This document shows positions 6,001-45,785 of a DNA stretch of 64,000 bases, in pieces. The notes under the pieces are model-generated. The model saw nothing but the letters and a program-made list of their open reading frames with translations. It was not told the origin of the DNA and did no database searches. A program made the translations under genes and the position numbers. Positions within the stretch are counted from its first letter, which is position 1. Each line of letters starts with the position of its first letter. The stretch is from Phytoseiulus persimilis (lineage: Eukaryota; Arthropoda; Arachnida; Mesostigmata; Phytoseiidae): the NCBI GenBank assembly GCA_037576195.1, contig CM075104.1, positions 8,190,775 through 8,254,774 of the forward strand, given 5' to 3'.

Positions 6001-9000
6001 ACGTGCTCGCTCCTCTCCACGAGCATAGCTCCGCGCGATTGGCCTCCGTCTGCCCTGAAGATCACTCTTTTTTCGCAAAAGACCTACCGAAACCACATTC
6101 TCGTCTCATCTGTCAGATTGCCCACGCCGAGGTGGGTACGCTTTCCCCGCTTCGCGAACGCAAAAGGGCTTTCCGGCTCTCAACAAACGACGGCGACCCG
6201 CCGAGCCGAACTTACCTAGCCGACTAACACAATTACGCGTAAACCCGCCACCGTGAAGGAAACATTCCGGGTTCCCGCCGCGGCTAGATGAAGATTCCGA
6301 GAGAGAGAGAGAGCCGACGACGGATGGAACGCGTGCCGTTTCAATATCAGGAGCCAGGGGTTTTCGACCCTCCCGCTTCGACATAGAACCTGCGTCTGAG
6401 CAGCACAACGCTGTTCCGTATATCAAATGCTGGATCGATCCTGCTTCGGAATCCGAATTCAGGCTACGATTCGTGAGGTTCCATTGCCGTGACTGTCTAT
6501 GACGTCATTTCGAAATGAGATCGTTTGCCCCTTGTTCAGATCCGGGCCTTCCGGTCGAGCACATCCTTGGGCCTGCGCGAGTCTCTTTCCATCCGCGAGC
6601 CTACCAGACGAAAATCCCTCGTCCATATTCTTCCGGCCCGGAGCCTGAAAGGCGTCCAGGTCGCGGTCTTTGGCGCGGCCCTCAAAAGGTTCTTGAAAGA
6701 ATTCAATGGACGCCGTGGGCCATCGGTGACAGAGTGGCCCTCACCGGCCGACCGGTGAATCCGAACGACATTAGGCCTCGTTTTGTGAATAGCTGGACTT
6801 TTAGCTCACGACGCCTAATTGCAGGAAAGCGAGGGAAGATGGGAGGGGCCCCGGCTGCATGCTTCCATGGCTGCAATGTATATGTATGTATATGTATATG
6901 AGGGGCAGAGGTCGGAAGTCTAGCTGTAGGAATGGGAGAACGAAAGGAAGGCGCCGAAATAGAAGCGTTCTCGACCCCCCGTTCCAGGAGTATGAAGAGG
7001 GGGAGTTTGGTTGAGCACCACGAGGCCGGACGCCGCGCGACCATCACCGAAGGAGCTTATGGATCTTTGCTATTGTGGAGCTTGAGCGTTGTCATCTCTC
7101 CCTTCCTCCCCCTTCCATTCTTGCACGCGGAACGCAGTATTAAAGTGAAAGGGTCATTGTGGGGTCCGTCCGTGCATCTGCATGGAGGTGCTGCTGATGG
7201 CTCTGACACCGAAGGGTTTGGTGGGTGAGCTGGCGTCGAACGGCGGAGGGGAGAACTGGCTCTCTTGCGCCGTCCTCAGAAAGTTTGCGCGTCCAGTGAT
7301 CCCGCCATCAATGACGGCTTCCCGTCCAAGGAATATTCATCTTCATATCCAGGTTGATCACCATTTCTCGTTTTCCGTCTGCTCTCTCTCATCTCGTTTT
7401 CTTAGTTGCGCGCTTTATTACTCGCGAGAATATGAAGGCCAACGCAGCTGCATCGCGGCAGGCAGCTCGCTGACGGTTTTTCCGGGGTGTGAAACTTTAA
7501 ATTGTTCCAAATTAAACAAAGTGCCCCTCACTGCGGGTCTACAGATTCTGCGGCAAGGAGGCAGCCAGACGCTTCGCCCTCCACAGCAGCGGAGCGTTTT
7601 CAAGTGCGACCGCAGAACAGGATCGTAGCGTATTCCTCTTGGTCCTTGTTTCCTCGACCAGTCGGGTGATGATGTTGGAAAATATCGAGTTGCTCCGAGA
7701 ATTCCGGGCGGTAGAACAAGCTTCCGGTGGCTCAGACTCGCTTTCAGGTGACAGACAAGGCTGTCGTACTTTCGACGGTCAGCCGCGGAATGGCGATGCG
7801 CGTTCCCCTATTGGCGGAAACCAGAGTCCACCGTCTGACTATCTCTTCCGCTGTCGACCGACGATTTCGCGTTTAACGAGCGAGTTGTACAGCTGCCTGA
7901 CTCGGGGTTGGCAGGAGAGCGGGGTCGGCCAGACCGCCGTCCAAAAGGCACGGCAACCTGCAATCCAAACGGCTTGACAAGGCTTGGAGAATGGCAGGGG
8001 GGAGCGCCGGGAGAAACAACCGTCGACGTTCTATCCGGGGAGCGGCATGACAACGGACGATCCGGAGGCGAGTCAATGAACGAATGCTAACGTCCGGAGC
8101 TTCCAATGAGAGTCACGTCTACACCTGGATACCAGGAAACGACGACCAGTCCGCCGGCAGCGCGGACGAACACCGATACACCGACCGACGGAAATTGCCA
8201 ATTGGCTTTCAGTCGATTAATCAGCAGCCTCTGTCACCAACTCAGTTCAAGGTTTCCAATTGTGAACGCACGCAAGTACACACGTTTCCTTCCTTCGCTG
8301 GGAGTGTGGGAGCCGAGCAATGACCGTCAGGAGCATGAAGGATGTCGCCTGTATCAGGAGAGCGGAGTTCCCTAATTCCTGTGCTCCCACGTGGAACTGT
8401 GAGTTGGGACGAACGTGAGGAGAGCACTCCTCCGAAGACATTTACACCGCTCGGCAGGAATGGACGAGACATACGAAAGGGAAGCGTATATACAGCCGCG
8501 GCTGGTTGAGATGGGCTCAAGCGGTGGGCGATATTTCACCGTCGACGTCGAGTAAGTGCTCGCCGGCGCCGGCACCGCTGAGGTAGTTGCCGGAGCAGGT
8601 CGAGCAGGTGGGTCGAAGGAAACTGAACAAGGGAGTTGGTTCCGGGCACGAGATACTCGGACCGAATCGGTTGCACGATGGGTCTCTCATTCCTCACAGT
8701 CCGCACGGTTCCAAGCTGCCTGTCGCGTGTGGAGTCAGCTGGGTTTTTGCTGCGGTTTCCATTCTGTTCGTTCGCCGCCCGCCCGCCCGCCGGCTCAGTC
8801 GTTCAAGCAACCAGCCGACCAACGGACCCACCTGGAGACGCGAAAGTCCCATTCAATGAGAGGTGCAGCGCTCGCTGTTGCCGAGCATGTGACCGAAAAG
8901 CCTCGTTACATGGATGACACGTCTGTGAAAGGAAATCTGGCCGACACGCTTTCGGGCACGTTCATATTCTATTTAGCTCATACCTCTCCGGATCGCTCTC

Positions 9001-21709: not shown

Positions 21710-21715
21710 TTTATT
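21710..21715 (-). terminator. polyadenylation signal AATAAA overlapping the ALAS stop codon
   Basis: On the minus strand the ALAS stop codon TAA (21716-21714) runs directly into TAAAA, so an AATAAA hexamer starts at the second base of the stop. If it is used, the 3' UTR is only a few tens of bases. No other AATAAA was noticed immediately downstream. Confidence 0.5.
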
Positions 21716-23243
21716 AGCATTTCTTGGCAGCAGTACTCAAAGAAGTTTCCATCGATCCGATGTTCCAGGCTCGTCTCAAGTTATCGACAAAGCGGTCGAC
21801 CATCGATTCGGTGTGAAAGGGTGTCGGCGCTAAACGGAGCCGCTCCTCGCCGCGAGCAACCGTCGGGTAGTTTATTGCCTGGACGTAGTGTCCGAAATTC
21901 ATGAGTTCGTTGCTGATTCGAGTGCATTCCTCGGGGTCTCCGACATGAACAGGAATGATGTGCGACTCGGAATTCAGCACAGGAAGTCCAGCTTGTTTCA
22001 ATTTCAGCCGACAGTATCGAACAATTTCCTGATGGCGGGTGCGAAGCGCTCGACCTTCGTCCGAGGCGAGCACTTCGATCGACGCTCTAGCGCCGCACAC
22101 AACGGTGGGAGGGAGAGAAGTTGTAAATATGAATCCGGCCCCGTAGGAGCGGATGAAATCGACGAAGTTTGCGGACGATGCAACGTAGCCTCCGATGTTT
22201 CCGAAAGCTTTTCCCAGAGTTCCCGATACGACGTCCATCTTGTGCATTATGCCTCGTTGTTCGCCGACGCCGGCTCCGTGCTTGCCGTACAGTCCGACGG
22301 CATGAACTTCGTCGACGAACGTTATCGCCCCGGAGTCGTGAGCGAGATCGCAAATCTGCTCCATGGGCGAGATGTCACCGGTCATGGAATGGACGCTTTC
22401 GAAAGCCACAATTTTCGGCGTCGATTTGGGAACTTGCTGGAGGAGTTCACGCAGATGTTCCACGTCGTTGTGTCGGAAGATGTGCTTGGGCGCGCCGCAG
22501 TTTTTGATCCCTTGGATCATGGACGCGTGATTGCCAGCGTCCGAGAATATATGAACATCTGGTATGAGTTTCCCCAACGTGAACAGGGTAGTGTCGTTGG
22601 CAACGAAGCACGACGTGAACAGCAGGGCAGCCTCTTTCCGATGTAGTTTCGCCAAGTCCAGCTCGAGGTTTTCATGCATGAGGGAATTTCCAGAAATGTT
22701 CCGCGTCCCGCCGGCTCCCGCTCCGTGCTTCTCGAGAGCCTGTTTGACAGCTTCGGTGACTTTCGGATGACGCGACATTCCCAGATAATCGTTCGAGCAC
22801 CAGACGGTGATGGATTTGTCCGGTTTCGAGACGCTGTGCTCTGTTGCGTTGGGGAAAACAGCGGCGAGACGATTGACTTTCTTGAATACGCGGTACGAGT
22901 GATCCATCTTCTTCTTGGCGATCATCGACCTGAAGTGCGTTTCGTAGCCGAAATCCGGCTTCTTGCATTTAAGCGGGGGCTCCACGAAGTCGATGCTATC
23001 GGCTGAGAGAGACTTGATGGCGGATCTGTTCTCGGCCAGAAACGGGCAGCGACTGCAGCGGCTGTCCACATCCACCGGGCAGGATGACGACTCCAACTTG
23101 GCTTGCTGGCTGCAGGAAATCGTACTGACACTTGCCATGTTGCGCGCGAGGAACGGGCACTGCCGCTGATAGACGTTCATCAGATTCGACGCATAGTTCT
23201 TGACGTAGGCGGAAGAGAGACGACTCACGAAGGGGCACGACAT
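21714..23243 (-). CDS. ALAS: 5-aminolevulinate synthase, mitochondrial
   Basis: The 509-residue product catalyses the PLP-dependent condensation of glycine and succinyl-CoA to 5-aminolevulinate, the first and rate-limiting step of heme synthesis in the mitochondrial matrix. Residues 1 to about 85 are a targeting and regulatory leader with four Cys-Pro heme regulatory motifs (Cys3, Cys29, Cys55, Cys66). The catalytic core has the glycine-rich HGAGAGGTRNISG (173-185), FVDEVHAVG with Asp311 and His314, and the PLP Schiff-base lysine Lys345 in SGTLGKAFG. It continues without gaps to the C terminus. The ATG at 23243 is chosen because MSCPF is the classic animal ALAS N terminus. The frame is open six codons further upstream, but through a likely splice-acceptor region. 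The coding region has no intron. The length is near that of invertebrate ALAS and shorter than human ALAS1 (640 aa). All catalytic residues are present, so the gene looks functional. Confidence 0.97.
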   Translation of the reverse strand: MSCPFVSRLSSAYVKNYASNLMNVYQRQCPFLARNMASVSTISCSQQAKLESSSCPVDVDSRCSRCPFLAENRSAIKSLSADSIDFVEPPLKCKKPDFGYETHFRSMIAKKKMDHSYRVFKKVNRLAAVFPNATEHSVSKPDKSITVWCSNDYLGMSRHPKVTEAVKQALEKHGAGAGGTRNISGNSLMHENLELDLAKLHRKEAALLFTSCFVANDTTLFTLGKLIPDVHIFSDAGNHASMIQGIKNCGAPKHIFRHNDVEHLRELLQQVPKSTPKIVAFESVHSMTGDISPMEQICDLAHDSGAITFVDEVHAVGLYGKHGAGVGEQRGIMHKMDVVSGTLGKAFGNIGGYVASSANFVDFIRSYGAGFIFTTSLPPTVVCGARASIEVLASDEGRALRTRHQEIVRYCRLKLKQAGLPVLNSESHIIPVHVGDPEECTRISNELMNFGHYVQAINYPTVARGEERLRLAPTPFHTESMVDRFVDNLRRAWNIGSMETSLSTAAKKC

Positions 23244-23499
23244 AATAGTTTTCGTCTGCAACGCAGCTTCTGGAACCCACGAGAAAATGAAAGAAACGCC
23301 TCGTTAGAATGGAGCACGCTAGGATCTCCAGCGATCTCGCAGGGACGACCCTCCATCGAGCTTCGGGAAGAGTCACCGTCGGAGCGAGCCGGCACGAAAT
23401 TCGAAAAGTTTCGGCATTCGTCCGGGCGAAACACATTGCACCATATGGCTCCACCGTATCGGAAGAAGAAAGACACACGTCAGCCAGCGGAGAGCCTAC

Positions 23500-36773: not shown

Positions 36774-39700
36774 CTATGTTCCCTGAGCTACTTTGATATC
36801 GATTCCCATGTATTTTACTTTGATTTTTTTAGGGTTTGAGATGTCTCATGGGAGGCCCTCTCCGGTCAATCTTCTCCTTCCTAGCGCTATCTTCTTCGAC
36901 ATGACTTTTCTGATGAAACTGGAGATTCTTCTCCATTCCTCTTCGCCGCTCATCATTTTCTCGATGAGTTCGGGTGTTTCACTTGCATCAATAAGGTCTC
37001 TCTCTCTCGCGAAGGCATCGCAGTGCACCAGGGTGTGATCAACGGTGTCTTCTTCGCCGGATCGGCAGTGGACACAGATTGGTGTTGGAGCTTTCCCAAT
37101 TCTTGAGAGTTATGCTTGAAAATCTCCACGTCCAGTGAGTGCCTGGGTGGTGAAGTAATCCAGGTCGCCGTGTTTTCGTTGGAACCACTCTTTCACATTC
37201 GGAATACATTTGTGCGACCATCGACCGTTATTCGCGCCGTCCCATCTCCTCTGCCATTTGTTTACGGTTTCGTCTTCAACTTCTTCCCTTGTTTTGGAAG
37301 TTTCGCTGATGAGGTCGTCATTCCCCTCCTTCTCCCTTGCTGCCCAAATTTCAGCTCGTTCTTCAGCAATTAAGGTCCATGGTGGTGTTTTGGCTAGAAC
37401 TAGGAGTGCTCCAGTTGATGTTGTCCTGTAAGCCCGGGTTATTCTTATGGCCATGATTCTTTGTGTTGTTTCCAGCAGCCGTCTGTTCTTCTCAGTGGAG
37501 AGAGTTCTTCGGGACCATACTGGGGACGCGTAGAGTGCGATGGATTGTGCGACAGTTGCTAGAGTTCTTCGCTGTGCTTCAATTGCTCCATGCGTTCTGG
37601 GGAGAATTCTTTCAATGTCTCTGGATGTCCTAGTAGCTTCTTGAGTGACAACCCGGAGGTGCGTGTTTCCTCTCAGGGAAGATTCGAGGTGAACGCCGAG
37701 GTATCTCACTGAGTTTCCTATTTCTATGCCGTGTCCCTGTAAGTGGAGTGTTGGGTTTCTTTCTCCTCTTTTCTTCACGAGCATTACCGCTTCCGTCTCC
37801 TCGGGGCTAGGGTGAGTTTATTGATCTGACGCCATCTCAAGTTATATCCAGTGAGTCCTGCTTAATTTTTTCTAATTCTTCTAGAGATCTAGCAGTGACC
37901 ATCAGGGCCAGGTCATCGGCGTGAGCAAGGGCGGTCGTTCCGTCTGGAAGATCCTCGCGAAGGACGTCGTCGTATCCCACGTTCCACAGGATGGGCCCGA
38001 GAACCGAGCCCTGTGGGACTCCAGCCGTCATTCTGTGCTTGTTTCCCTCCTCATCGATGATCCACCTATCCTTGAGGTAAGTGTTTATGATGTTTCGGAT
38101 GTATGGAGAGATGTTGCGTTTCTCGAGGGCATCGATTATGATTCTCCATTCAATTGAATTGAAAGCATTTTTAACGTCTAGGAGTATGACAATGATTCTG
38201 CTCCTGCTTTGGTGCTACTTTCTCATTTCATTCTCGACCTTCTCTGTGATGATTTCTATGGGACTCAGCGTTGATCTCCCCGGTCTGAATCCATACTGAT
38301 TGTTTGAAAGCCCTGCCCCAGCCTCAAGTTCCTCCCGTAGTCGGTGGTTTATGACCGCCTCCACTGCTTTTGCGATGGTGTCAAGTAGGTAGATGGGCCG
38401 ATAAGAGTCCGCTTTCCCAGGTTTTGGAATAAGGATGAGATTCGCTGTTTTCCAGTTTTCTGGAAATTCTCCGCTTCTGAGAATTTCCTGTGTGAGCTTC
38501 GCGAAGGTGCTGGGCCATCTGGTGAGCAGTGTTTTGATTGCCTCTGGGGGATGCCGTCCGGGCCAGGGGCTTTTCCTCCGGGGGTTCGAGCTGCGACGGC
38601 TTTTATTTCATCCATTGTGATGTTGGGGATATCTTCAGGTCTGGTTGGTATCACTCTCCGTTGGATTTCCTCTCCTTGAGGGAAGAGTTTGGTCATGGCT
38701 GTCCGGATTGTGTGAGCTGGTAATGGGATTTTCTTCTGCCCGAATTTCTGTCTGATTATTTTATAGGGGAGTCCCCATACGTCCTCCCGTTTTCCATCAC
38801 ATAGTTCTTGCCACTTTTCCCGTTTACTTCTGAGAATTTCGTTTTGGTATTGCTTCTTGGCATTCTTGGCTTCTTTGTATGATTCATGTGCTTCTCGCGT
38901 TTGTTCTGGGCCAGGGTGTCTAGCTCTTCTGATTCTCAGAAATCTCCTTCTTGATCTGACGCAGTTCGTTCTACGTTCTGCTATTTCGCTATTCCACCAG
39001 TACATTGGCTTTTTGTCTTTTCTTTTCGGATGTTTGGACGGGGTTCCTTCTCGGCAGGCTTTTGTCAGGATTTCCGTTAGTGTTGCTGGTGTTATTTCTA
39101 TATTGCTGTCTCTGCTTGTCTCACAAAGATTGTCGAGTTTTTTCAGGAAGAGCTCTTTGTTCATGGTGGTCCATTTCCATCCTTTTCTTTCTTCAATTCC
39201 TCCGATTGCTGTATCTGTATGTATTTCGAATTCTATATATTCATGGTCACTGAGAGGTTCCATTTCTTCATTCACATTCCATTTTCCGATGAGGTTAGGT
39301 GAGTTTGATGCGGATATGTCGATATATGATGTTTGGGTCCCTCTTCTGAAAGTTGGGATGTCTTTCTGGTTCGCTATTGTTAGATCTCTACTTGCCAGTA
39401 TCTCCTCTAGTTCTCTCCCTCTTCTGGTTGTGTATTCACTTCCCCATGACGTCGAGGCTGCGTTGAAATCCCCGGTGAGGATTCATTTCAGTCTGGATGC
39501 TTCATTTATCTTTTGTTCTATCATTTCGAGGTATTTGTTGAATTCTTCAATACTCTTATTGGGGGAGAAGTGGCAGCTGGTTAAATGGATGTTGCCCGTG
39601 ATAGTTATTTCTGTGAGTCCGTGCGTAGTGGTTTTCCTTTCAATTCTTGCTTGTCTTGAGGCTCCTGTCCACCATATCGCCGTGTCTCCCTCTTGGTCCG

Positions 39701-39860
39701 CAAATCATCCTGCATCTGCCTTGGACTTGTGGTCGGATACCTTTCTGTTGACCTCCGAGAGTATGCAGACGTCAAATTCTTTATTCCGGATTCTTTGTTC
39801 CAAGATGTCGTGAGCAGCTCTTGATCGATTTAGATTCATTTGGCATGTTCTCAAGATCAT
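36774..39860 (-). pseudogene. R1-clade LINE ORF2 (endonuclease-reverse transcriptase), broken
   Basis: The reading frame begins MILRTCQMNLNRSRAAHDIL (endonuclease start) and continues with CILSEVN, ILTGDFNAASTSWGSEY and SDHEYIEFEI. The RT region starts near GGKAPGPDGIP and includes LLDVKNAFNSIEW and GVPQGSVLGPILWN. Its active-site box reads HADD instead of YADD. The finger ICVHC...HTLVHC lies near 37020-37080. A deletion of one C near 38548 shifts the frame and later shifts near 37800-37840 restore it. In-frame stops lie at 39705-39707, 39483-39485, 37110-37112 and 36846-36848. The span of about 1029 codons fits a full-length R1-clade ORF2. Confidence 0.85.
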
Positions 39861-40105
39861 TCGGGATATTCTGTAGGTATTTTCGCCTTTCCTTTGACTG
39901 TGAACCATTGTTTCCGGGAGTCTGATCTGAGTGGAGTGGGGTCATTGGTGGGCTGTGATGCTGCTTGCTGTTCTCTGGTTTCTTGCATTGGTTCTTGGAT
40001 GGTTCGTTCTATATGAGATTGCTTCCGGGCCTCAGTTCTGCTCCTGAGTTCTTTGAGGATGCCTAAGTAATTCGGGCACGCTGTAGTTGATGCTGTGTGT
40101 CGTTG
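39857..40105 (-). pseudogene. R1-clade LINE ORF1, C-terminal fragment
   Basis: The minus strand encodes a tail beginning about HTASTTACPNYLGIL, followed by KELRSRTEARKQ, and ending at TGA 39859-39857. The ACPNYL block resembles the final Cys-containing part of the Gag-like zinc knuckle of R1-clade ORF1. The stop overlaps the ORF2 start as ATGA. The upstream three quarters of ORF1 are absent, consistent with ordinary LINE 5' truncation. Confidence 0.6.
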
Positions 40106-40780
40106 AGGAGTTACGAGAGGAAATGCGAGGGAAAGCGAAGAGAATGAAATTAGCCAACGGGCAGGCCCTTGAAAAAGGGGTGGATACGATCGCTTGCCAT
40201 TTTTCGAGGAAATGAGATGACTCCGATCGGTTTTCCGGCGAATGACCGGCTACCTTTCGCCTACGAGCCCGATCGGATGAATTTTGGCGTTTTCACGATG
40301 ACTTTTAGGGATCGAATTTTGCAAGGATGACCGCCTCGATACCCTCTATCGATCACTTCTTGGTTTTCGAGAAAATTACTGAAAAATTAGAGCTGAGAAA
40401 GTTATGGCCAAAACAAGATCGGGCTCGAGAATCTATATATATAAAAATCCAGGGTCTGTTTGTTTGTTTGTTTGTTTGTATGTCCTCAATAGGCTCCTCT
40501 GGTATTGATCGGATCGACTTGGAACAATCTGCATAATGTAGGGCGGCTCTCCGGGACGGACATAGGCCACCCACCCCTCCCCCCCTCCTCCTCCCCTCCT
40601 CCCCCCCTCGCGATTTACCCCAACTTTGACCCCCTCCATACTGTCATCCGCATCCAAATTCTGACGATAAGGTGCACCGCCCCGTTATGACGCCAGCCAG
40701 ACTCATCCCATCGTCATCGGATATCCTTCCCCACCTCCTCTCCTGTACATCTATCATGAAAATCTATCATAAAAATTCCT

Positions 40781-43700
40781 GGAGGGGTGATTTCGAGACC
40801 AATAAGGCCATTACTTCCCAACTCTGGAGGGGTGATTCCGAGACCAATCTGGCCATTACTTTCCAACTCTGGAGGGGTGATTCCGAGACCAATCTGGCCA
40901 TTAGTTTCCAACTCTGGAGGGGTGATTACGAGACCAATCTGGCCTTTAGTTTCTAACTCTGGAGGGCTGATTGCGAGACCAATCTGGACATTACTTTCCA
41001 ACTTTGGAGGGGTGATTCCGACACCAATCCGACCATTAGTTTCCAACTCTGGAGGGGTGATTCCGGTGCCAATTTGACCATTACTTTCCAACTCTGGAGG
41101 GGTGATTCCGGAACGTATCTGGCAATTACTTTCCAACTCTGGAGGGGTGATTCCGGAACCAATCTGGCCATGACTTTCCAACTCTGGAGGGGTGATTCTG
41201 AGACCAATCTGGCCATCACTTTCCAACTCTGGAGGGGTGATTCCGAGACCAATCTGGCCATTAGTTTCCAACTCTGGAGGGGTGATTCCGGTGCCAATCT
41301 GGCCATTAGTGTCCAACTCTGGAGGGGTGATTCCGGTACCTATCTGGCCATTACTTTCCAACTCTGGAGGGGGGATTCTGAGACCAATCTGGCCATTACT
41401 TTCGAACTCTGGAGGGGTGATTCCGAGACCAATCTTGCCATTAGTTTTCAACTCTGGAGGGGTGATTCCGGTGCCAATCTGGCCATTAGTTTCCAACTCT
41501 GGAAGGGTGATTCCGGTATCAATCTCGCCATTAGTTTCCAACTCTGGAGGGGTGATTCCGGTACCAATCTGGCCATTACTTTCCAACTCTGGAGGGTTGA
41601 TTCCGAGACCAATCTGACTATCACTTTCCAAGTCTGGAGGGGTGATTCCGAGACCAATCTGGCCATTACTTTCCAACTCTGGAGGGGTGATTCCGAGACC
41701 AATTTGGCCATTACTTTCCAACTCTGGAGGGGTGATTCCGAGACCAATCTGGCCATTACTTTCCAACTCTGGAGGGGTGATTCCGAGACCAATCTGGCCA
41801 TTAGTTTTCAACTCTGGAGGGGTGATTCCGAGACCAATCTGGCCATTACTTTCCAACTCTGGAGGGGTGATTCCGGAACCTATCTGGCAATTACTTTCCA
41901 ACTCTGGGGGGGTGATTCCGGTATCAATCAGGCCATTACTTTCCAACTCTGGAGGGGTGATTCCGAGACCAATCTGGCCATTACTTTCCAACTCTGGAGG
42001 GGTGATTCCGAGACCAATCTGGCCATTAGTTTTCAACTCTGGAGGGGTGATTCCGAGACCAATCTGGCCATTACTTTCCAACTCTGGAGGGGTGATTCCG
42101 GTATCAATCAGGCCATTACTTTCCAACTCTGGAGGGGTGATTCCGAGACCAATCTGGCCATTACTTTCCAACTCTGGAGGGGTGATTCCGAGACCAATCT
42201 GGCCATTAGTTTTCAACTCTGGAGGGGTGATTCCGAGACCAATCTGGCCATTACTTTCCAACTCTGGAGGGGTGATTCCGAGACCAATCTGGCAATTACT
42301 TTCCAACTCTGGGGGGGTGATTCCGGTATCAATCAGGCCATTACTTTCCAACTCTGGAGGGGTGATTCCGAGACCAATCTGGCCATTACTTTCCAACTCT
42401 GGAGGGGTGATTCCGAGACCAATCTGGCCATTAGTTTTCAACTCTGGAGGGGTGATTCCGAGACCAATCTGGCCATTACTTTCCAACTCTGGAGGGGTGA
42501 TTCCGGAACCTATCTGGCAATTACTTTCCAACTCTGGAGGGGTGATTCCGGTATCAATCTGGCCATTACTTTCCAACTCTGGAGGGGTGATTCCGAGACC
42601 AATCTGGCCATTACTTTCCAACTCTGGAGGGGTGATTCCGAGACCAATCTGGCCATTACTTTCCAACTCTGGAGGGGTGATTCCGAGACCAATCTGGCCA
42701 TTACTTTCCAACTCTGGAGGGGTGATTCCGGAACGTATCTGGCAATTACTTTCCAACTCTGGAGGGGTGATTCCGGAACCAATCTGGCCATGACTTTCCA
42801 ACTCTGGAGGGGTGATTCTGAGAGCAATCTGGCCATCACTTTCCAACTCTGGAGGGGTGATTCCGAGACCAATCTGGCCATTAGGTTCCAACTCTGGAGG
42901 GGTGATTCCGGTGCCAATCTGGCCATTAGTTTCCAACTCTGGAGGGGTGATTCCGGTACCAATCTGGCCATTACTTTCCAACTCTGGAGGGGGGATTCTG
43001 AGACCAATCTGGCCATTACTTTCCAACTCTGGAGGGGTGATTCCGAGACCAATCTTGCCATTAGTTTTCAACTCTGGAGGGGTGATTCCGGTGCCAATCT
43101 GGCCATTAGTTTCCAACTCTGGAGGGGTGATTCCGAAACCAATCTGGCCATTAGTTTCCAACTCTGGAGGGGTGATTCCGAAACCAATCTGGCCATTAGT
43201 TTCCAACTCTGGAGGGGTGATTCCGAGACCAATCTGGCCATTAGCTTCCAACTCTGGAGGGGTGATTACGAGACCGATCTGGCCATTAGTTTCCAGCTCT
43301 GGAGGGGTGATTCCGAGACAAATCTAAGCATACTTTTCAAAACCTGGAGGGGTGATTCCGAGACCAATCTGGCCATTACTTTCCAACTCTGGAGGGGTGA
43401 TTCCGGAACGTATCTGGCAATTACTTTCCAACTCTGGAGGGGTGACTCCGCTACCAATCTGGCCATTACTTCCCAACTCTGGAGGGGTGATTCCGAGACC
43501 AATCTGGCCATTACTTTCCAACTCTGGAGGGGTGATTCCGAGACCAATCTGGCCATTAGTTTCCAGCTCTGGAGGGGTGATTCCGAGACCAATCTGGCCA
43601 TTAGTTTCCAACTCTGGAGGGGTGATTCCGAGACCAATCTGGCCATTAGTTTCCAACCCTGGAGGTGTGATTCCGAGACCAATCTGGCCATTACTTTCCA

Positions 43701-44290
43701 ACTCTGGAGGGGTGATTCCGGTACCTATCTGGCCATTACTTTCCAACTCTGGAGGGGGGATTCTGAGACCAATCTGGCCATTACTTTCGAACTCTGGAGG
43801 GGTGATTCCGAGACCAATCTTGCCATTAGTTTTCAACTCTGGAGGGGTGATTCCGGTGCCAATCTGGCCATTAGTTTCCAACTCTGGAAGGGTGATTCCG
43901 GTATCAATCTCGCCATTAGTTTCCAACTCTGGAGGGGTGATTCCGGTACCAATCTGGCCATTACTTTCCAACTCTGGAGGGTTGATTCCGAGACCAATCT
44001 GACTATCACTTTCCAAGTCTGGAGGGGTGATTCCGAGACCAATCTGGCCATTACTTTCCAACTCTGGAGGGGTGATTCCGAGACCAATTTGGCCATTACT
44101 TTCCAACTCTGGAGGGGTGATTCCGAGACCAATCTGGCCATTACTTTCCAACTCTGGAGGGGTGCTTCCTATACGAATCTGACCGTACTTTCCAAAACCT
44201 GGAGGGGTGATTCCGTCTCTAATCTGACCATTACTTTCCGAGTTTGGAGGAGTGAAACCGGGACCAGTCTGAACATACTTCTCCAAGTCT
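40781..44290 (+). repeat. 45-bp minisatellite, 78 units in perfect register
   Basis: The unit reads GGAGGGGTGATTCCGAGACC followed by AATCTGGCCATTACTTTCC and AACTCT. The first GGAGG is at 40781 and the last at 44246, a separation of exactly 77 x 45 bp. The register holds at every point I checked in between, so there is no net insertion or deletion. Substitutions cluster in a few columns: GAGACC versus GGTACC, GGAACC, GGTGCC or GGTATC; ATTACT versus ATTAGT; TGGCC versus TGGCAA. One plus frame is open over about 1100 codons (about 40957-44301), and a minus frame over 845 codons (43251-40714). These frames are a by-product of the 15-codon unit unless shown otherwise. Confidence 0.95.
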
Positions 44291-44336
44291 GTCAGCAGTA
44301 GACTCCCGAAGCAAGGGACGGGTCGGCCAGCGTAGT

Positions 44337-44354
44337 CGGCCGAAGGCCGGCTAG
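44337..44354 (+). other. Helitron 3' hairpin and CTAG terminus
   Basis: A five-pair stem CGGCC/GGCCG with a GAA loop ends one base before CTAG. In Helitrons this hairpin marks the termination point of rolling-circle transfer. A second GTCGGCC lies just upstream and could allow an alternative pairing. Confidence 0.75.
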
Positions 44355-44355
44355 T

Positions 44356-45785
44356 TCTCGACTAAAAAAAGCCACCCCGTATAGCTTGGAGGTTCAGGCG
44401 GAATGTGCATTCATAGGCCAGCTGTGCATTCATTGGCAAAAGACGCAATATAGGCGAAAAGTGCATTTGCAGACAAAACTGAGTTGAATAGCATTGGCTG
44501 AACGGGCACTTCTGAGCGGAGGAAGGAATCTCAGTGAATAGAAGCTCTGACAAAAACCAACGATAGCTGGCAGGAAGCATGAAAGACACGGTTCTTTCCG
44601 CCCTTCGGCGGCATGAGGGCAGCTGCGGGATTTTCCGAGTATCCCTAGGGAAGTATTCCCAGGCGCATTCGGGCTACTCTATATAATATCGGAGTCGAGG
44701 AAAGTTTGCGGCAGCTCAAGCAAACTGAGGCTTGAGATTGGAGTCGAGTTGATTTCCGAATCGTTGCCGCCTCATACGCATCAAGTTGAGGCAAGCCAAA
44801 ACTTTTCAGCGCTCCGGCGTATTTAGACCGCCTATCACGCCAGCTTCGCTCGCCTCTTCCGCCTGTTTCGAACGCCGGAATTTCTAAGCTCTAGATATAA
44901 CCGCAGGGTCAAGCTTTGGTCCCGTCTTCATCTTCTCGCGAGCGACTGAGTATTGGAAGATTATGAGTTGTCCCCGCGGAAACCCAGATCGAGAACCAGA
45001 AAAATTCTCAGTCCATATGTGAAGAGCTCGACTCTAAACGGCGATAAGTCCATTTTTGTCGAATTCCGGATTTCGATTAATATCGGATCTGGATCAAGCT
45101 CTCTCCCAAACGCTAGTCCCAGATCGGTGATATTCGTTCGCTGCTGCCGCGAAAGGAGGGCTCAAGATTAGGTTCGTTTCCAAAAGGAGATGAGTCCTAC
45201 AGTAGTTCATTACCAGAAGGGAATAAGTTCAAGGTAGCTGTCCATCGAGGAGGAACGTATCCGGAAAGCCACATTTTTTTAGCATAAATGGAGATATACG
45301 CATGGCTGTTGGCAATCTAGTGAGCCCACAGCCTGAGACGATGACCACGGTTCTCCTCTCCCAATATGAGAGCGCTGTTAACTACACAGGACCACGGTCG
45401 TTTTCATTCTGCTGATTTTATTCTTTGATGCAGAAATAATCAGTGATGAGGAAATTCTAATTCGATGTCTCGGATTCGGAGTATTGGGTTGAATATTCCT
45501 CTCCTTGCCTCGAGCACCAAGACCCGCGATAGAATTTGTACGTCGGGTGTCTCTCGTCCACACCAATAATTCCCAATAAGCGCAGGACATCCTTTTTCTC
45601 TGCATCCATCATTCGACTTTCCTCTTCTCATTTTAGTTCGGCTATCATGAAGCCTGAGAAGTTTTTACCTCGCTTGAGAATCGAGACTTGCTCGAAAGGA
45701 GCGCTGAAATCTGTCGAGATTCCCATGACATCACCGAGAATTCTGAGCCTACGTCGCTCAGATATCAAGAAAGTTTGTTTTGCTT
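44356..45785. other. intergenic stretch, no recognisable gene
   Basis: Between the Helitron and the next transposase relic I recognise no protein or RNA gene. The open frames are short (up to about 87 codons). Confidence 0.4.

Follow-up and report, generated by a model that had tools for sequence, protein, structure and literature searches.

The 45-bp minisatellite described here makes up about 90% of a Helitron in the window, the whole stretch of 64,000 nucleotides of Phytoseiulus persimilis DNA that was analysed. It very probably owes its regular length to inheritance of the element as a whole and to turnover of the array in blocks of whole units, at an indel rate which is low throughout the family and with no selection on a coding frame. 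This reading draws on what can be observed directly: the ends of the element and its insertion site, units and unit order shared among copies, block duplications inside the array, the indel rate of the family, and the absence of coding constraint.

A canonical non-autonomous Helitron

The carrier of the array is a canonical non-autonomous Helitron of 3923 bp at 40432-44354, recognized by its terminal motifs, its flanks and related repeats that run across the insertion point; this element and all of its parts are given on the plus strand. It begins with TC at 40432 and ends with CTAG at 44351-44354, and thus has termini of the TC/CTRR type, inserted between A and T without target-site duplication (GAGAA-TC...CTAG-TTCTCG). 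When the joined host flanks were compared with the genome (181 Mb in 127 contigs), 43 matches were obtained, two being the window's own halves and 41 spanning the junction with 81-95% identity; at the two loci inspected at base level, the insertion target is uninterrupted and carries no duplicated bases. T directly follows the right end in all 33 cases in the fetched loci, and A precedes 19 of the 21 copies of the left end in the 20 loci and the window that are not labelled as following a right end or a leader, some of these copies being internal. The Helitron setting assumed in the preliminary description is thus borne out by the TC and CTAG ends, the A|T target and the uninterrupted sequence at the insertion point.

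The left end (LE1, TCTATATATATAAAAATCC) and its leader together span 318 bp at 40432-40749, containing TTTG and C-rich simple repeats, and were delimited by genome matches and an alignment of 39 rows. At least 55 matching pieces exist elsewhere in the genome, some partial and several per locus; this is a lower bound, as 40 of 905 candidates were scored. The right end (RE) is a 63-bp segment at 44292-44354 ending in CTAG; its last 20 bases followed by T occur 290 times exactly in the genome. A hairpin with a 9-bp stem (including one T-G pair) and a GAA loop can be folded at 44333-44353. In canonical Helitrons the hairpin lies about 10 bp upstream of CTAG, whereas here the stem overlaps the final CTAG. 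It is to be noted that the 63-bp right end folds no better than its shuffled versions (z = -1.03, 30 of 200 shuffles doing as well), and the assignment of the hairpin therefore rests on its position.

The whole of 40432-44354 is accounted for by leader, array and right end, and no Rep/helicase gene is found in the element, as is the case by definition for non-autonomous Helitrons. Helentrons and HINEs insert between T and T and have ends other than TC/CTRR, and the insertion site and ends of the window element do not fit that class. The Helitron Rep domain PF14214 has 101 matches in the genome. Among the six best of these loci, searched over 3.5 kb each, no autonomous partner with the same ends was found; one of the six overlaps a sampled locus (L020), where the Rep match lies beyond the right end of the element.

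A 78-unit array in a single register

The minisatellite itself extends over 40779-44291, as defined by TRF, unit cutting and wrap-around alignment. It consists of 78 units of exactly 45 bp (40779-44288), followed by 3 bp up to 44291; TRF reports period 45, 78.1 copies, 90% matches and 0% indels over the whole span. If the sequence is simply cut every 45 bases from 40779, 78 units emerge in a single register. They comprise 39 distinct sequences; the commonest, identical to the consensus, accounts for 17 of the 78 units. A 16-base piece of the unit appears 58 times in the window and never in 100 shuffles. With head-to-tail units in the range of 10-100 bp, the array is a minisatellite in the usual sense. 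The count of 78 units of 45 bp in the preliminary description is thereby confirmed, the unit starts given there (40781 and 44246) being in the same register shifted by 2; the copy number 78 is to be taken as the figure of the assembly.

The same description held that not one length change had been kept. This is correct for the net length, which is unchanged in the window array, but not for every unit: wrap-around alignment reveals three compensated -1/+1 pairs in the divergent units 57, 76 and 78, of the type CATTACTTTCC vs CATACTTTTCC, for which clusters of substitutions are an alternative reading. Unit 57 (43299-43343) has 10 differences from the consensus including such a shift, and units 76-78 (44154-44288) form a divergent right edge of the array with shifts in 76 and 78. 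Compensated pairs are present in 33 of 42 array segments, window included, and are therefore old variants.

The family in the genome

A 36-base core of the unit has 2677 exact copies in the genome. The sample of arrays used below comes from 20 regions that surround left ends and were selected for the similarity of those ends, and is thus not a census. With the window and one further locus, L008, added, the regions gave 42 array segments exceeding 200 bp. Another five, no longer than 200 bp (in L012, L015, L018 (two) and L028), were left out, and so were incomplete units at the ends of arrays. Four of the 42 were then set aside, namely L008 as an older relative, both arrays of L011 as indel-rich, and a duplicate (the L022 array at 559, identical to an array in L021). 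Five of the remaining 38 arrays are truncated at the edge of the fetched region, and the 38 are partly non-independent, L016 and L020 sharing 47 of 49 units and L009 and L013 26 of 31. The largest sampled array has at least 166 units (L024).

Nine arrays run directly into the right end, and the lengths of eight of them leave a remainder of 3 when divided by 45 (3513, 3063, 3198, 2703, 1173, 408, 408 and 3018 bp); the ninth, in L027, leaves 5 and contains two 46-bp units. Much more divergent arrays, with 70-81% matches and the 45-bp period kept, lie beside younger ones in L018 (6121-6316) and L028 (8316-8634).

Inherited variants and block copying

Where did the substitutions in the window array arise? 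Twenty-nine of its 39 distinct units, representing 66 of the 78, recur letter for letter in other fetched arrays, and the ten remaining unit types are separated from their nearest relatives by at most 13 substitutions. Most of the substitutions were thus inherited and did not arise at the present site. The order of units is shared as well: window units 3-25, 23 in succession, match an array on another chromosome (L013), and 18 consecutive units match L017.

Traces of block copying are also visible within the array. Units 13-22 equal units 66-75, so that 468 bp at 41312-41779 are identical to 43697-44164, 53 units apart; units 8-16 and 44-52 differ by 5 mismatches, and shorter repeated blocks are found at lags of 4, 5, 9, 14 and 17 units. 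In L013, two arrays in one locus, of 71 and 60 units, have their last 38 units in common. The idea that the array expanded out of a few variant units, one of the explanations offered in the preliminary description, is supported by these internal duplications and by the presence of 66 of the 78 units in other copies.

These features suggest that the regularity very probably came about as follows. The array is the cargo of an element that transposes as a whole, presumably with the Rep/helicase of an autonomous relative, and each new copy thus arrives with an array already carrying the old substitutions of the family. Arrays also grow and shrink by blocks of whole units, through out-of-register exchange, gene conversion or replication slippage, and the 45-bp register is kept because the changes come in whole units. 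True indels are added at the low rate typical of the rest of the family. The source of the enzyme, the direction of copying between loci and the recombination pathway behind the blocks are inferred.

Is the absence of indels exceptional?

The preliminary description considered the lack of indels anomalous for a minisatellite of this age. Throughout the 38 arrays, window included, 1918 of 1953 units (98.2%) are 45 bp long and 35 are off-length. All of the latter lie outside the window (35 of 1875 units), and at this rate the probability of seeing none in 78 units is about 0.23 if units are independent, a rough value as the arrays are not fully so. Arrays free of any off-length unit number 19 of 38 with the window and 18 of 37 without it. 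Thus, the supposed anomaly is not sustained. Frequent indels in other copies, which the preliminary description had named as evidence against its own view, were encountered only in part: the other 19 of the 38 arrays hold occasional off-length units, with net changes from -1 to +14 bp, but the indel-rich arrays of L011 look artefactual, as discussed below.

Three ratios can be compared with this rate. The 39 rows of the leader have 59 substitution variants and, leaving aside the TTTG and C-rich repeats, 2-3 indels; copies of a nearby repeat show 5 indels against 202 substitutions, though they are an imperfect neutral control, having possibly been under selection while active; and among the unit types of the arrays, 30 are off-length and 490 on-length. 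Indels per substitution thus range from 0.025 to 0.06 over the three. For the at most 13 private substitutions of the window, fewer than one indel is expected at these ratios. Too few mutations are private to the window copy, and therefore the absence of indels in it is not notable.

A larger expectation follows if all variation in the array is counted. A minimum spanning tree needs 68 substitutions to connect the window unit types, units 57, 76 and 78 excluded, and multiplied by the ratio of the array family this gives about 4 expected indels and a probability of about 0.02 for none, if all changes were independent and occurred in situ; the leader and nearby-repeat ratios give 1.7-3.5. Zero indels would then be mildly to clearly unusual. 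Such a count is an overestimate, however, because most of the 68 changes are common to other copies.

It might also be imagined that off-length units are purged by a physical constraint on length, for example through single-stranded replication intermediates or the spacing of proteins. The 98.2% share of 45-bp units is what such a constraint would produce, as is the persistence of compensated -1/+1 shifts in old units, and the old and divergent relative L008 retains the period, 29 of its 32 units being 45 bp and 3 off-length, which would allow for a weak preference for this length. Yet off-length units do survive in 19 of 38 arrays, and they look like products of ordinary slippage: runs of six or more G are present in 13 of the 35 off-length units vs 63 of the 1918 on-length ones, so that about one third of them probably go back to slippage at a mutated GGAGGGG. 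Moreover, the ratio of off-length to on-length types in the arrays (30:490) is not below that of indels to substitutions in the leader (2-3:59). We consider a physical constraint unlikely, and inheritance with whole-unit turnover remains our preferred reading.

Coding frames and assembly

The alternative raised in the preliminary description was selection on the 15-codon phase. Under this reading, the array would code for a repetitive protein (1075 aa on the plus strand, 845 aa on the minus strand) whose reading frame has to be kept. A length of 45 bp is indeed divisible by 3, and long open frames do exist on both strands. However, four of the six frames of the consensus unit are open, and with no stop in these, long ORFs on both strands arise automatically. 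Constraint was therefore sought in the 260 one-step changes between unit types of the family, for each of the four open frames. In the frame of the 1075-aa ORF, stops are 19 vs 13.4 expected, silent changes 70 vs 74.2 and replacements 171 vs 172.4; in that of the 845-aa ORF (LESNGQ...), stops are 7 vs 9.6 and silent changes 53 vs 70.5, the latter opposite to what constraint would give. The second plus frame has 14 stops vs 10.6 expected and 60 silent changes vs 74.9. Only the second minus frame (SWKVMARL...) has silent changes slightly in excess, 78 vs 69.8, and there the stops are as expected (18 vs 18.1). The excess of silent changes joined with depletion of stops that marks a repetitive coding gene is thus seen in none of the frames over the 260 changes. 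In addition, the plus frame of the 1075-aa ORF is interrupted by a stop in 132 of 1918 units, and only 3 of the 35 off-length units (48, 48 and 51 bp) depart from 45 bp by a whole number of codons. In Pfam at E 0.01, the minus-strand ORF matches no family. The plus-strand ORF gave five families, ChitinaseA_N among them, in which no single stretch passes, and these hits were discarded as what weak matches add up to when a repeat is scored many times over. No open frame shows convincing constraint, and we regard selection on the 15-codon phase as hardly credible.

Regularity or copy number could, in principle, be a product of assembly, by collapse or expansion of near-identical units. Assembly does seem to be in trouble elsewhere in the family. 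Exact cores are irregularly spaced at C1:4031330-4039717, which is probably a consensus error of the assembly. The two arrays in L011 (488-4519 and 4981-8101) are built of almost uniform units in which small indels are numerous; only 75 of their 158 units are 45 bp long, even though 13 of the 14 opening units of the first array are. They contain 144 indel runs together with only 1.1 and 0.65 substitutions per unit, and 83 of the 144 runs fall in 14 of the 45 columns, variable ones that we picked ourselves, vs 31% expected. Judged on the first 45 units of each array, units such as GGTGACC look like the product of merging reads that came from different unit types. The indels of L011 are thus probably consensus errors in a highly uniform array, and the locus was not taken as proof of real and frequent indels. 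For the window array, this explanation works in the wrong direction, as damage of this kind adds indels and is not expected to remove them, and its order of 23 consecutive units is reproduced on another chromosome, although the copy number could still be wrong. An assembly artefact as the source of the regularity is accordingly very improbable, and inheritance with turnover in whole units accounts for it better.

A second left terminus and multimers

Directly ahead of the array, at 40750-40778, there is a second TC start preceded by A (LE2), recognized from its exact copies, from RE-LE2 junctions and from copies linked to leaders. Of 82 exact copies in the genome, 68 come after a leader (65 with the standard leader and 3 with a variant) and 14 lie precisely after a right end; none of the 82 adjoins host DNA. 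A left start comes immediately after 20 of the 33 right ends in the fetched loci, LE1 in 8 cases and LE2 in 12, and exact junctions genome-wide amount to 28 RE|LE1 and 22 RE|LE2. A site at 4585 in L011 that had been labelled as a right end is not a true one, and an LE2-like site at 481 in L013 is situated within a diverged leader match.

Tandem RE|LE2 junctions occur in L009, L013, L014, L015, L020-L023 and L028. An A variant is carried by 21 of the 22 RE|LE2 junctions and L013's own leader has G, which suggests that the tandems in L013 were not made from that leader. Ahead of some arrays (L007, L009, L013, L014, L016, L020-L023, L026 and L028), two or more copies of the leader, each of about 320 bp, stand head to tail, and 9 LE1 copies come directly after a leader end. 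The most compact arrangement is found in L022 at 6158-8405, where a 500-bp unit made of LE2, nine 45-bp units and RE is repeated about 4.5 times, with three right ends at 500-bp spacing and LE2 after each: a miniature tandem Helitron.

What could be the role of LE2? As a tentative idea, which we put forward with considerable doubt, the two left termini could have separate tasks, LE1 serving insertion into the host and LE2 only circles and tandems, such that [LE2-array-RE] blocks would multiply leaderless and lie as multimers behind an LE1 element. The pattern may reflect enzymatic use of LE2 or spread from one founding junction. As for rolling-circle copying, which the preliminary description had suggested as a route of expansion, the precise head-to-tail RE|LE junctions show that the family forms multimers of the kind expected from it, and it is a possible cause of changes in the number of units within an array.

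Surroundings of the element

The Helitron is inserted within a repeat (40314-40431 and 44355-44386) of which the genome has many copies. In several places this host repeat forms inverted pairs about 800 bp apart, which are perhaps the terminal inverted repeats of another transposon. Farther away, the window contains a 5-aminolevulinate synthase gene at 21714-23261 on the minus strand, open over 515 codons, with a Pfam match to Aminotran_1_2 and a weak ALAS presequence. Also on the minus strand, 38349-40101 and 37110-37784 are what we take, from a motif, to be remains of a non-LTR retrotransposon; two ORFs tried there gave no Pfam match at 0.01, and 39000-40101 has copies elsewhere in the genome at 94-96% identity.

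Comparison with known Helitrons

As described for Helraiser and canonical Helitrons, the family has TC...CTAG ends, A|T insertion without duplication, a 3' hairpin and precise right-to-left end junctions in tandem; unlike them, the window element has no Rep/helicase and is about 90% minisatellite, and the junctions of the family also involve a second left terminus (PMC5876387). The same source gives precise right-to-left junctions as known products of Helitron circles and mentions tandem Helitrons in plants and bats; they are also mentioned in fungi (PMC5148889).

There is ample documentation of satellite arrays inside both Helitrons and Helentrons (PMC7492417, PMC4595182, PMC12628747). The Cg_HINE Helentrons of the Pacific oyster are similarly non-autonomous, with conserved flanks, a central array and many dispersed copies. 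According to the account of their 13 clusters, however, the monomers are mostly 140-180 bp with at most 29 per array, compared with 45-bp units and at least 166 in one array here, and the ends here are of Helitron and not Helentron type (PMC7492417). In Caenorhabditis elegans, short satellite units are likewise carried and dispersed by Helitrons, with 345 members in six families, a likeness drawn from their description and not from unit sequence (PMC4595182). Centromeric Helitron arrays of plants (Xiong et al. 2016, as summarized in a review) share rolling-circle tandem amplification of parts of the element; many of them have multiple 5' ends and a single 3' end, whereas the present family has repeated leaders too and, in addition, the opposite arrangement, in which several [LE2-array-RE] units come after one leader (L013) (PMC12628747).

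Helitrons with internal arrays are thus already known, the window element is a further case, and the regularity of its array is ordinary for its family; what is particular to this family is the second left terminus. More generally, a striking regularity of length can arise from inheritance and whole-unit turnover without selection, and the proper yardstick for the regularity of an array is the element's own family. Its right ends number in the hundreds and its units in the thousands, and with precise junctions between ends and two left termini the family is a good natural record of how Helitrons seed and enlarge satellite DNA. If the reading with two termini is true, the element would be a satellite factory.
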